From contig CANGHG010000006.1 in NCBI GenBank assembly GCA_947453645.1, forward strand, positions 1 to 35,943: DNA of 35,943 nucleotides, in the 5' to 3' direction. The translations under genes and the position numbers were made by a program. Within the stretch, counting starts at the first letter, position 1. Each line of letters starts with the position of its first letter. The notes beneath the pieces are model-generated. The model was given only the letters and a program-made list of their open reading frames with translations, had not been told where the DNA came from and made no database searches. Of this stretch, positions 1 to 20,110 are shown one piece after another. This DNA is from Comamonadaceae bacterium. GTDB taxonomy: Bacteria > Pseudomonadota > Gammaproteobacteria > Burkholderiales > Burkholderiaceae_C.

Positions 1-1221
1 CTGCAACTTTGGACCGTTTGGCGTCAAGCCCAGCAAACACTGGCCAATGCGCGCTTGGCACAAGACCATTTGCAGCAAGAGCGAGAGCGACTGAGTTGGC
101 AAATTGGCGAGGTGGACAAACTCTCGCCCCAAGCCCACGAATGGGAAGAGCTCAACGCCCAGCACAGCCGACTCTCCAACGCCCAGGCTCTGATGGACGC
201 GGCCCAAACCGCCTTGCATCACCTGCAAGAAGACGGCAGCGGTGCCACGGTGACCTTGGTGCATGCGCAAAACGCCCTGATGGACCAAGCCGCCATAGAG
301 CCTGAATTTCAAACGCTGGCCGACCAATTGGCGTCGGCCCTGGCGCAAGCCGAAGACGTGGCGCACAGCTTGCAAGCTTGGCTGCGCCGCGCCGACTTGG
401 ACCCGCAAGGTCTGGCCGAGCTCGACGCCCGACTTAGCTTGTGGGTGTCGCTGGCTCGCCGTTACAAACGCACCCCCGTGGAGTTGCCCGAGTTGCATGT
501 GAGTTGGCAAGACGAATTGCGTCGACTCGATGCTGCCGCTGACTTGGCTGCACTTGAAAGCCAAGCGCAAGCCGCTCACAAAGCTTATGTCGCGGAGGCT
601 CGCAAGCTCAGCAAAGCCCGCGGCTTGGCCGCACCCAAATTGGCAGCCAGCATCACCCAGGCCATGCAAGCACTAGGAATGCAAGGCGGTCGTTTCGAGG
701 TGAGTTTGGACACCTTGTCCGAACCCGCCAGCCATGGTCTGGAGGAGGTTCAGTTCTTGGTGGCTGGGCATGCTGGGAGCACGCCACGCCCTGTGGGCAA
801 AGTGGCGTCTGGCGGCGAGTTGTCCCGCATCGCACTGGCCATTGCAGTCACCACCAGCCAGTTGGGCGAGGCGCAAACCCTCATCTTTGACGAGGTGGAC
901 TCTGGTGTGGGCGGTGCTGTCGCTGAGACCGTGGGCAGACTCATGAAGCAACTCGGCAGAGACCGGCAGGTTTTGGCGGTGACTCATTTGCCCCAGGTGG
1001 CAGCTTGCGCCGATCACCACTGGGTGGTGTCCAAGCAAAGCGACAAAACAGGCAGTTTCAGCGCCGTTCAAGAAGTCGTGGGCGAGCAGCGGGTGAGTGA
1101 AATTGCCCGCATGTTGGGCGGCGAACGTCTCTCAGACACCACCCATGCCCATGCGCGCGAAATGCTCAGCACCATGGCCGCCGTAGCGCCCAAGAGCAAA
1201 ACCAAGGGCAGCAAGGCATGA
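1..1221 (+). CDS. recN: DNA repair protein RecN (5' truncated)
   Basis: This is the C-terminal two thirds or so of RecN, an SMC-like ATPase that acts in the cytoplasm in recombinational repair of double-strand breaks. The reading frame is open from the first base, so the start lies outside the window. The left part is a glutamine- and alanine-rich coiled-coil arm. The right part carries the ABC signature [14 protein letters not shown], the Walker B stretch [13 protein letters not shown] and the switch region [17 protein letters not shown], in the order expected of RecN. The last bases overlap the rapZ start as ATGA, so the two genes are probably translationally coupled. Family assignment is firm; only the missing N-terminal Walker A half is unseen. 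Confidence 0.96.
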
Positions 1222-17039: not shown

Positions 17040-17588
17040 ATGACTGACACCAAAACCCACCCCCGCAACCACGGCATCTTGTCGGAAGAAACCCACCAAC
17101 TCAATCTGCTGAGACAACACCGGCGCATGCACCGACTGCGCCAACCGGTGGTGGTGCGGCCGTTCCCATTGGCCGAAGTTGCCGAGGGGCCTGTCATTTC
17201 GCGCGGCCAGCGTTTGGCAGATTGGGTGGCGTCCACCATTGGATCTTGGCGGTTCATCATCATTCAAAGCTCAGCCATCGCGGTTTGGATCACGGGCAAT
17301 GTGCTGGCCGGGGAAAGTGCATGGGACCCTTACCCCTTCATTCTGTTGAACCTGTTGCTGTCGTTTCAGGCAGCCTACACAGCCCCCGCCATCATGATGA
17401 GCCAGAACCGGCAATCGGAGTTGGACAGGAAACACGCTGAAAATGACTATGAAATCAATGTCAAAGCGGAGTTGGAAATTGAACTGCTGCACGACAAGAT
17501 CGACATCTTGAAAGAACAAGAACTGTTGAATTTGACCGAAGCCATCAAGGTATTGACAGCCAAGGTAGAGGCTTTGTCGCCCAAATAA
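17040..17588 (+). CDS. DUF1003 family membrane protein
   Basis: This 182-residue protein belongs to the DUF1003 family, whose function is not established. An N-terminal soluble, arginine- and histidine-rich segment is followed by ADWVASTIGSWRFIIIQSSAIAVWI, the family's hallmark first membrane helix region. A second hydrophobic segment (FILLNLLLSFQAAYTAPAIMMSQNR) carries the conserved APxIMMSQNR end. The C-terminal ~50 residues are charged and look like a coiled coil. The start is 3 bases after the previous stop. The next gene, rpoH, is separated by 100 bases that contain its own operator. Confidence 0.9.
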   Translation: MTDTKTHPRNHGILSEETHQLNLLRQHRRMHRLRQPVVVRPFPLAEVAEGPVISRGQRLADWVASTIGSWRFIIIQSSAIAVWITGNVLAGESAWDPYPFILLNLLLSFQAAYTAPAIMMSQNRQSELDRKHAENDYEINVKAELEIELLHDKIDILKEQELLNLTEAIKVLTAKVEALSPK

Positions 17589-17625
17589 TATCCATACAAA
17601 TCTGCTGTTAAATTGCGCTAGATCA

Positions 17626-17652
17626 TTAGCACTCTAAACACCTGAGTGCTAA
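17626..17652 (+). promoter_or_regulatory. Perfect CIRCE operator (HrcA binding site) upstream of rpoH
   Basis: TTAGCACTC-N9-GAGTGCTAA is an exact match to the CIRCE consensus, with both 9-base arms intact and the canonical 9-base spacer. It lies 36 bases before the chosen rpoH start, a usual place for HrcA repression. HrcA is the heat-sensitive repressor of groESL/dnaK-type genes. A TTAGCA-N18-TAATAT promoter-like pair overlaps the site (17626-17655), but that match is weak. Confidence 0.95.
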
Positions 17653-17676
17653 TATAGGGTTGTTACTGACATGGAT

Positions 17677-17681
17677 AGGAG
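17677..17681 (+). promoter_or_regulatory. Shine-Dalgarno sequence deciding the rpoH start
   Basis: AGGAG lies 7 bases before the ATG at 17689. This favours that codon over the in-frame ATG at 17671, which precedes the Shine-Dalgarno itself. Confidence 0.85.
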
Positions 17682-17688
17682 CCCATTG

Positions 17689-18633
17689 ATGACAACACTG
17701 ATGCTTTCAACACCTTCTGCCACCCCAGTTGCGGCCAATCCTTGGGCTTTGCTGCCCCCATTGGGCAACTTGGACGCCTATATTTCAGCGGTCAACCGCT
17801 TGCCCATGCTGACCCATGAGCAAGAGCAGGAATTTGCCAAAAAACTCAAAGAAAACAACGACTTGGAAGCGGCCGGCAAGCTGATTTTGTCGCACCTGCG
17901 GCTGGTGGTCGCCATTTCCCGCCAATACGCGGGCTACGGCCTGCCCCAAGGCGACCTGATTCAAGAAGGCAATGTCGGCCTGATGAAGGCGGTCAAGCGC
18001 TTTGACCCCGACCATGGCGTGCGCTTGGTGAGCTACGCCATGCACTGGATCAAGGCTGAAATCCACGAATACATCATCAAAAATTGGCGCATGGTCAAGT
18101 TGGCAACGACCAAGGCGCAACGCAAACTGTTCTTCAACCTGCGCTCCATGAAGCAAGGCTTTCGTGCCGATGCTGGCGAAGACCACAACACCTTGACCCG
18201 TGACAGCTTGAGCGACGCTCAAATTGACAGCGTGGCCAAAGAACTCAATGTCAAGCGGGAAGAAGTCATCGAGATGGAAGCTCGCATGGCCGGCGGCGAT
18301 GTGCTGCTCGACCCCAGCCCCAGCGATGACGGCGAGGACGCATTCGGCCCTATTGCTTATTTGTCAGACTTGCACCATGAGCCCACGGCCATGATCGAGG
18401 CGCATCAACGCGAAGTGCTCTCCAGTGATGGCATCACACAGGCGCTGGAGGTGCTTGACCCACGCAGCCGTCGCATCGTGGAAGAGCGCTGGCTCAAGGT
18501 GAACGACGACAACTCGGGCGGCATGACATTGCACGAATTGGCCGCCGAATATGGGGTGAGCGCCGAGCGGATTCGACAAATTGAAGCGTCCGCCATGAAA
18601 AAAATGAAGGCCGCCTTGTTGGAATTCGCTTAA
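17689..18633 (+). CDS. rpoH: RNA polymerase heat-shock sigma factor RpoH (sigma-32)
   Basis: RpoH directs RNA polymerase to heat-shock promoters. The 314-residue protein shows region 2 (LILSHLRLVVAISRQYAGYG, DLIQEGNVGLMKAVKRFDP, VRLVSYAMHWIKAEIHEYI), then the diagnostic RpoH box QRKLFFNLR, and region 4.2 with the helix-turn-helix LHELAAEYGVSAERIRQIE. The start at 17689 is supported by AGGAG seven bases upstream. A perfect CIRCE operator precedes it, implying HrcA control of transcription. The stop overlaps the SCO1 stop on the opposite strand within TTAA, so the two transcripts must run into each other. It is the last gene of the plus-strand block. Confidence 0.97.
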   Translation: MTTLMLSTPSATPVAANPWALLPPLGNLDAYISAVNRLPMLTHEQEQEFAKKLKENNDLEAAGKLILSHLRLVVAISRQYAGYGLPQGDLIQEGNVGLMKAVKRFDPDHGVRLVSYAMHWIKAEIHEYIIKNWRMVKLATTKAQRKLFFNLRSMKQGFRADAGEDHNTLTRDSLSDAQIDSVAKELNVKREEVIEMEARMAGGDVLLDPSPSDDGEDAFGPIAYLSDLHHEPTAMIEAHQREVLSSDGITQALEVLDPRSRRIVEERWLKVNDDNSGGMTLHELAAEYGVSAERIRQIEASAMKKMKAALLEFA

Positions 18634-19211
18634 TTCAACAACTTGGCAATGTCTTGGGCCATGGCCTGGGGCCCAAGACCATAGCGGGCATACAAGCGCA
18701 CCCGACCTTCGGTGTCATACACATAGGTACCCGCTTGGTGGTCCATGGTGTAACTGGTGGGCGTGGCCCCTGCCACCTTTTTGTAATAGACCTTGAAGCT
18801 TTTGGCCAAAGCGGGCAACTCCTCTAGCGATGGCACCAGTGCCAAAAATGCTGGGTCGAAATGGCCCATATAGGCTTTGAGCAACTCGGGCGTGTCGCGC
18901 TCGGGGTCAACCGTGATGAAGATGGCTTGCAACTGCTTGCCCTTGTCACCTAAAGATTTTTTCACCTGTACCCACTCGGTCAGCGTGGTTGGGCAAAAGT
19001 CGGGGCACTGGGTGTAACCAAAGAAGACCACCACCACCTTGCCTTTGAAATCGGCCATGGTGCGCAACTGCCCGTTGTGGTCTTTGACTTCAAAGCCCTG
19101 GGCGTAATCAGCACCAGTCAAATCAATCGAATTGAACTTGGGCTTGTCAGGCGAACACGCCATGCAACACACCAACAAGGCCAAGGACAAACAGCGGCTC
19201 AAGCAAGTCAT
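18630..19211 (-). CDS. SCO1/SenC family copper chaperone (lipoprotein-like)
   Basis: SCO proteins deliver copper to, or reduce, the CuA site of cytochrome c oxidase subunit II. The protein has a thioredoxin fold with the copper-binding C-X3-C (CPDFC, residues 69-73) and the distal histidine in YTMDH (residue 158), plus the [12 protein letters not shown] and [11 protein letters not shown] blocks. The N-terminus is a signal sequence ending in several cysteines (VCCMAC), probably a lipoprotein anchor with an atypical lipobox. The ATG at 19211 overlaps the ctaB stop (ATGA); a GTG at 19223 is an alternative. It is the last gene of the oxidase/heme A cluster. Confidence 0.95.
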
Positions 19212-20110
19212 GCAGCACCCCACAGGTAATGGTCAATCAACAAGGCCGCAAACAACAGGCTCAAGTGGTAGAGAGAGAACCTAAAAGTTTTGCGGGCCAA
19301 CTCGTCTGAGTAGTTGCGCCACAAAGCCCAGGCATAGCCGCAAAACATCAGGCTCAAGATGACAGCACTCACCAGGTAAAACCAGCCACTCATGCGGTAG
19401 ATGAAGGGCATGAGGCAAGCGGCCAAGAGCACAAAGGTGTAGAGCAAAATTTGCAGCCGGGTGAACTCGTTGCCGTGCGTCACAGGCAACATGGGCAAGC
19501 CCGATTTGCGATAGTCCTCCACCCGGTACAAGGCCAAGGCCCAAAAATGCGGCGGGGTCCACAAGAAGATGATGAGGAACAAAATCAGTGCCTCTGGGCC
19601 CACCTCTCCGGTGATGGCCGCCCAGCCCAGCACGGGCGGCATGGCACCCGATGCGCCACCGATCACGATGTTTTGTGGCGTGAGGGGTTTCAAAATGACG
19701 GTGTAAATGACGGCGTAGCCCACGAACGTGGCGAATGTGAGCCACATGGTGAGGGGGTTGACCCAGACATACAAAATGAACGAGCCCAACAGGCACAAGA
19801 TGGCCGAGAACAACAAGGTGTCTCGGTCACTCAATTCACCTTTGGCCGTGGGTCGCCATGAGGTGCGCTTCATGCGGGCATCAATGGCTTTTTCCACAAT
19901 GCAGTTGAAAGCGGCAGCGGCACCCGACACCAACCAAATGCCCAAACACGCAATGGCACCCAAACGCAGCTCGGCCCAAGAAGGCACGCCAGGCACGGCC
20001 AACACCATGCCAATCAGGGCGCAAAACACGATGAGCTGAATCACCCTGGGTTTGGTCAAGGCGTTGAACTGCTGCCAACGCACGGGCAAGTACTGGGCTA
20101 TAGACGTCAT
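19208..20110 (-). CDS. ctaB: Protoheme IX farnesyltransferase (heme O synthase)
   Basis: CtaB converts heme B to heme O, the first step toward heme A. The 300-residue protein starts [23 protein letters not shown]. The ATG overlaps the ctaA stop (ATGA), and the longer frame upstream is only ctaA shadow. It is a UbiA-family prenyltransferase with the substrate-binding motif [21 protein letters not shown] (N-x3-D-x-x-M-x-R-T core) and a second aspartate-rich loop, [19 protein letters not shown]. About nine hydrophobic segments are visible. It sits between ctaA and sco, as expected for a heme A and copper supply module. Confidence 0.96.

Follow-up and report, generated by a model that had tools for sequence, protein, structure and literature searches.

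Predicted HrcA control of the sigma-32 gene rpoH through a CIRCE operator overlapping a conserved promoter element in a Comamonadaceae bacterium

Control of rpoH, the gene of the heat-shock sigma factor sigma-32, relies in E. coli on an RNA thermometer and on protein stability, and an E. coli genome searched as a control gave no match to PF01628, the profile of the repressor HrcA. HrcA activity in other bacteria requires GroEL, and the repressor is inactivated there either when GroEL is titrated away or because HrcA itself is heat-labile. Its operator, CIRCE, has been proposed to act in some Bacillus transcripts as a hairpin affecting mRNA stability or translation. A 2003 survey by Permina and Gelfand, which by its title is said to treat both regulons in beta- and gammaproteobacteria, is suspected to report CIRCE before rpoH in some of these taxa. 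In the part of the literature available to us, this arrangement is printed for Geobacter sulfurreducens, where a CIRCE before rpoH is listed at −51 with HrcA as the predicted regulator (Rodionov et al. 2004, PMC545781, Table 8); the original prediction for the DNA studied here was thus right to caution that the link may not be new. In the literature searched, including the accessible parts of PMC3135505, PMC3989490 and PMC1978210, we found no report of CIRCE upstream of rpoH in a beta- or gammaproteobacterium, which is no proof of its absence.

The window, by which we mean the whole analysed stretch of 35,943 nucleotides, is one whole contig of a Comamonadaceae bacterium and carries at positions 17626–17652 (no strand assigned) the exact inverted repeat TTAGCACTC-N9-GAGTGCTAA, a predicted HrcA binding site conserved before rpoH. 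The element reads TTAGCACTC-TAAACACCT-GAGTGCTAA and spans 27 bases with 0 mismatches to the 9-9-9 inverted repeat. At up to three mismatches it was the only CIRCE match in the window, and also the sole match in the whole assembly (1.59 Mb, 116 contigs, 69% complete). None of 100 dinucleotide-shuffled windows contained a CIRCE match, and a reversed-pattern control gave 19 matches with at most three mismatches in ~154 Mb from 61 genomes of the genus (0.12 per Mb), which corresponds to a chance expectation of ~7e-5 per 540-base stretch.

The gene behind the operator was confirmed as rpoH by the score of its reading frame (17671–18633) against the RpoH equivalog profile TIGR02392, 391.8 bits at a cut-off of 323.1. 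A ribosome-binding site, AGGAG, lies on the forward strand at 17677–17681, 7 bases before the ATG at 17689, and the first ATG of the frame, at 17671, would give a longer reading that has no such site. Because AGGAG serves the ATG at 17689, sigma-32 is a protein of 314 amino acids encoded at 17689–18633 on the forward strand, and the 36-base distance (17653–17688) originally given between an exact CIRCE and rpoH is right. Upstream on the same strand lies a gene for a DUF1003 protein (17040–17588). The downstream gene, at 18630–19223, points the other way, so that rpoH is probably transcribed alone. The CIRCE element stays with rpoH across relatives although the upstream genes differ; in one of them (G047) the neighbour of rpoH is an ftsY-like gene, named by eye, and not a DUF1003 gene.

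A search of related Comamonadaceae for CIRCE before rpoH had been proposed together with the original prediction. An rpoH query against the genome collection yielded, as the best 80 named loci among the matches listed, sequences from Limnohabitans, Comamonas, Acidovorax, Rhodoferax, Curvibacter, Diaphorobacter, Ramlibacter, Polaromonas and other relatives. CIRCE was present within 350 bases upstream of rpoH in 78 of these 80 Comamonadaceae-type loci; the two loci without it (L051 and L106) are at contig ends and have 12 and 2 upstream bases, respectively. When 30 rpoH loci from a 61-genome sample of the genus, a set that partly overlaps the named one, were added to these best 80, CIRCE was found in 107 of 110 loci, with all three misses at contig ends. 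The element was exact in 95 of the 107, differed by one mismatch in 11 and by two in one. Three loci bore the titles Bordetella parapertussis, Polynucleobacter and Singulisphaera (L057, L066 and L115); their RpoH proteins are 76–85% identical to that of the window, as in Comamonadaceae, and these are probably mislabelled assemblies.

A second short palindrome, GGTTAACC, was seen with its start 15 to 29 bases before CIRCE in 10 loci (L027, L030, L031, L032, L036, L041, L056, L057, L058 and L123), amounting to 7 of the 90 unique Comamonadaceae-type sequences among the matches listed, and in none of 81 order or 67 class sequences. Its confinement to those seven led us to reject it as part of the general design; it is possibly the site of another regulator.

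Alignment of the upstream regions on CIRCE showed that the 9-base spacer and the flanks vary but the letters of the arms hardly do, and revealed a conserved extended −10 element running out of the operator. In the window this element, TGC-TAATAT (TGCTAATAT), occupies 17647–17655 on the forward strand and is likely to belong to the main rpoH promoter; the closing letters of the right CIRCE arm serve as its first letters. The corresponding pattern TGCTAANAT (TGC-TAA-N-AT) was present in all 107 Comamonadaceae-type loci with CIRCE, the named ones being from the best 80 among the matches listed, and the A and T of the −10 that lie outside the palindrome were invariant in the 90 unique sequences of this type (again among the matches listed). 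In 81 unique order sequences from outside the family the −10 was less strict, with the A at 83% and the last T at 99%. A possible weak −35, TTAGCA (17626–17631, forward strand), agrees at 4 of 6 positions with an 18-base spacer, and lies inside the left arm of CIRCE, where it is inseparable from the operator. The promoter-like pair originally described over the operator thus stood in its −10 half, which was detected solely through CIRCE-anchored conservation, while the −35 is weak at best and a strict sigma-70 scan of 17300–18000 returned no promoter. From the position of the −10, transcription is predicted to start 7 bases after it, at 17662 on the forward strand, which would give rpoH a 5′ leader of ~27 nt and leave CIRCE outside the transcript. 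The element thus sits at a heat-shock gene promoter, as far as that promoter can be read from sequence, overlapping its conserved −10. Since the right arm of CIRCE runs into the conserved extended −10, HrcA and RNA polymerase should compete for the same DNA, and a block of polymerase by HrcA is to be expected.

The placement of the −10 bears directly on another reading, in which the palindrome is kept as a 5′ hairpin of the rpoH mRNA that acts on stability or translation, or because it contributes to an RNA thermometer. CIRCE is able to form a stem, and rpoH of E. coli has a thermometer. However, an invariant −10 that overlaps the right arm should put CIRCE upstream of the transcript start, and the near fixation of the arm letters goes beyond what mere pairing would call for. 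Moreover, RNA made up of the predicted leader and the early coding part (17662–17760 and 17662–17930) folded no better than shuffled sequences (z of −0.04 and +1.34), and no Rfam match was found in 17400–18100 at E values up to 1. We therefore regard the hairpin as very improbable and retain the reading of CIRCE as a DNA operator.

Many relatives carry a further promoter-like pair at the operator. Upstream of CIRCE, GGAACT was found in 31 of the 90 unique Comamonadaceae-type sequences among the matches listed, 28 times at −12, and in 26 of 82 order sequences, 22 times at −16 or −17; shuffling the upstream bases of these two sets lowered the count to ~1 on average, with a maximum of 5. The class set had GGAACT in 25 of 67 sequences, at −16 or −17 in 16 of them. 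GGAACT followed 15–18 bases on by TCNNA occurred in 28 of the 90 Comamonadaceae-type sequences (among the matches listed) and in 25 of the 82 order sequences, compared to a mean of 0.2 and a maximum of 2 in shuffles. We take this pair to resemble the consensus of RpoE-type (sigma-E) promoters, and by the look of these sequences many relatives have a promoter of the sigma-E type that overlaps CIRCE and has its −10 inside it. Examples come from Comamonas, Diaphorobacter and Acidovorax (L059, L062, L083 and L125); positions 17600–17625 of the window hold no GGAAC. A −35 of the GGAAC type upstream of CIRCE was found neither in the window nor in any of the 29 genus loci, the window included, compared to 32 of the 78 named loci (from the best 80 among the matches listed); the looser GAAC was present in 1 of the 29 genus loci against 41 of those 78. 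Judged from the genus loci nearest to that of the window, the genus seems to have dropped the sigma-E input and kept the operator. For Bordetella bronchiseptica, in vitro transcription by SigE of fam, the homologue of rpoH, has been reported (PMC3490749).

The original prediction depended on hrcA being present in this genome, and here the outcome was divided. Taken literally, the gene is missing, as a PF01628 profile search of the assembly produced 0 matches. But groES was also not found there (PF00166), so that the absence of a gene from an assembly that is 69% complete means little. The window starts inside recN, whose 3′ part (1–1221, forward strand) is cut by the contig end, and the first bases of the contig align 1.70–1.72 kb from the hrcA match in four relatives (G014, G013, G047 and G015). 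G015 has a divergent hrcA followed by nadK and then recN, so that nadK and the beginning of recN lie in between; hrcA was identified by PF01628, nadK and recN by eye. Probably, hrcA fell off at the contig edge, and its presence in this genome is inferred from the relatives. Of the 61 genomes in the genus sample, 56 have hrcA, among them all 26 high-quality ones.

These data also weigh on the view that CIRCE is a relic of a lineage that has lost hrcA, with the site decaying or kept by chance. That no hrcA was found in the incomplete assembly is what such a relic would predict. Opposed to it are the exactness of the site in the window, the presence of hrcA in every high-quality genome of the genus, and the four relatives that carry hrcA just past the homologue of the contig edge.

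Three genomes of the genus (G047, G049 and G057; 1–2 contigs, 100% complete) had two CIRCE elements each at up to three mismatches, one before rpoH and the other 82–83 bases before groES, where groES and groEL were named by eye. At hrcA itself, 12 loci of 11 genomes of the genus, some truncated at contig ends, had no CIRCE within four mismatches. From these sequences, the HrcA regulon of the genus looks like rpoH plus groESL.

Across the order, presence of the site went with presence of the regulator. We read the region upstream of rpoH in a sample of 100 genomes from 51 families (anonymous codes), in which rpoH was detected in 97 (E 1e-60) and hrcA in 89; the three genomes with no rpoH match (G066, G090 and G105) were dropped, and of the two rpoH genes of G107 only the first was counted. 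CIRCE with at most three mismatches preceded rpoH in 82 of 86 genomes with hrcA and in 2 of 11 without it, and the latter two (G000 and G112) have a completeness of 69% and 84%. When at least 90% completeness was required, the contrast was 81 of 84 with hrcA against 0 of 9 without (Fisher p ~2e-10, ignoring relatedness). Even at four mismatches no CIRCE was found before rpoH in these nine genomes, which belong to families f4, f20, f35, f41, f42 and f45. This failure of the site to persist where hrcA is gone further opposes the relic, to which we accordingly give very little credence, and loss in company with the gene of a DNA-binding repressor likewise speaks against the mRNA hairpin. At least two of the losses look independent, because G113 (f4) and G094 (f35) lack hrcA and CIRCE and their family mates have both. 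In G094 (L180), GGAACTTT and a TAAAAT −10 are retained, with an eroded palindrome left between them, and G161 (L312), also without hrcA, contains by eye an eroded CIRCE remnant between retained promoter elements. To judge from these letters, both remnants are operator decay after repressor loss. The exceptions with hrcA were three genomes with a 4-mismatch CIRCE (G069, G086 and G133) and G145, with no good CIRCE at rpoH and with a broken hrcA fragment containing an internal stop.

A class sample extended this pattern. It comprised 114 genomes, 102 of them with rpoH (E 1e-50), and the stretches were taken from 68 previously unread genomes with hrcA and from 11 of 32 previously unread genomes without it. 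CIRCE (at most four mismatches) preceded rpoH in 63 of 69 stretches, that is, in 63 of the 68 genomes with hrcA, and in 4 of the 11 without (Fisher p ~7e-5, ignoring relatedness). Three of these four are 62, 73 and 81% complete, bringing to five the incomplete assemblies with CIRCE and no detected hrcA (G000, G112, G164, G258 and G197). The fourth, G253 (L308), is 99% complete and has a one-mismatch CIRCE before rpoH with no hrcA match; it may represent a recent loss of hrcA, an overlooked gene or another binder. Conversely, five class genomes with hrcA had no CIRCE match at rpoH (G231, G271, G185, G196 and G172); by eye, G271 (L277) carries a CIRCE-like element with an 8-base spacer before rpoH, and only the right arm is left in G196. 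Two genomes have two rpoH genes, with CIRCE at both in G107 (L221 and L223) and at one in G191 (L279 and L294).

From a phylum sample of 60 genomes, we read the 28 for which loci were returned, using the best rpoH match where there were several. Thirteen of these belong to the same class, and four of the thirteen were also in the class sample; CIRCE was present in all 3 that have hrcA and in none of the 10 that lack it. No CIRCE was found at the rpoH read in 15 genomes of other classes, 14 of which carry hrcA; therefore, possession of hrcA is not by itself enough for the link. The HrcA–rpoH connection looks characteristic of this class, to which the printed Geobacter case has to be added. The original prediction included neither this reach across order and class in the samples read nor the sigma-E-type promoter that many relatives, but not the window, have over the operator.

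The pairing of CIRCE with rpoH, so regular among sampled relatives that have kept HrcA, is almost certainly real. Taken together, conservation of the element, its disappearance along with hrcA and its overlap with the promoter strongly support HrcA control of rpoH as originally predicted, and we consider it very probable that CIRCE before rpoH is a functional HrcA operator that represses rpoH transcription. HrcA bound to CIRCE would cover the extended −10 and any −35 and would thereby exclude RNA polymerase; at normal temperature rpoH and groESL would both be repressed. Heat or protein-folding stress would inactivate HrcA and derepress rpoH along with groESL, the sigma-32 produced would switch on its own regulon, and newly made GroEL would bring HrcA back into action and so complete the circuit. 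We infer binding, repression, release by heat and GroEL feedback at rpoH. A weaker version of this scheme holds that HrcA does bind, yet rpoH is controlled mainly by other means, such as protein stability, a thermometer or a further promoter, which would make the wiring in series a minor factor for the sigma-32 level. This would resemble E. coli, where sigma-32 control is largely post-transcriptional, but tight conservation and loss together with hrcA over many families imply a selected effect, and we hold a merely minor contribution to be rather unlikely, though a serious possibility.

If, as the samples suggest, most relatives with hrcA place HrcA over sigma-32, the repressor-type (Bacillus) and sigma-type (E. 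coli) modes of heat-shock control do not exclude each other as the textbook division has it. In many proteobacteria both circuits would then run in series, with GroEL, acting via HrcA, helping to set the level of sigma-32 mRNA, and sigma-E-type and housekeeping promoters placed over one operator would make that operator a point where envelope stress and cytoplasmic stress meet. We lean towards the view that the HrcA-free scheme of E. coli is a derived exception that arose at each loss of hrcA, and that the lineage of the window kept CIRCE and the housekeeping promoter and lost the sigma-E input.

Compared with known systems, the locus shares its operator and its repressor family (PF01628) with the HrcA/CIRCE systems of Bacillus and others. 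The Bacillus-type targets are groESL and dnaK, whereas here the target is a sigma-factor gene, which places the repressor above a second regulon. As in E. coli-type control, a sigma-E-type promoter appears at rpoH in many relatives; the window has none. As far as the consulted part of the survey goes (PMC545781), Geobacter sulfurreducens has the same exact TTAGCACTC-N9-GAGTGCTAA before rpoH, with groESL as the constant target. It differs in being a deltaproteobacterium, a single one of the genomes studied being listed with the CIRCE–rpoH pair, and in carrying CIRCE at hrcA-grpE-dnaK-dnaJ, in contrast to the 12 hrcA loci of the genus of the window. The kind of link is therefore already known, and what may be new is its loss together with hrcA across the sampled class and the double promoter at the operator.
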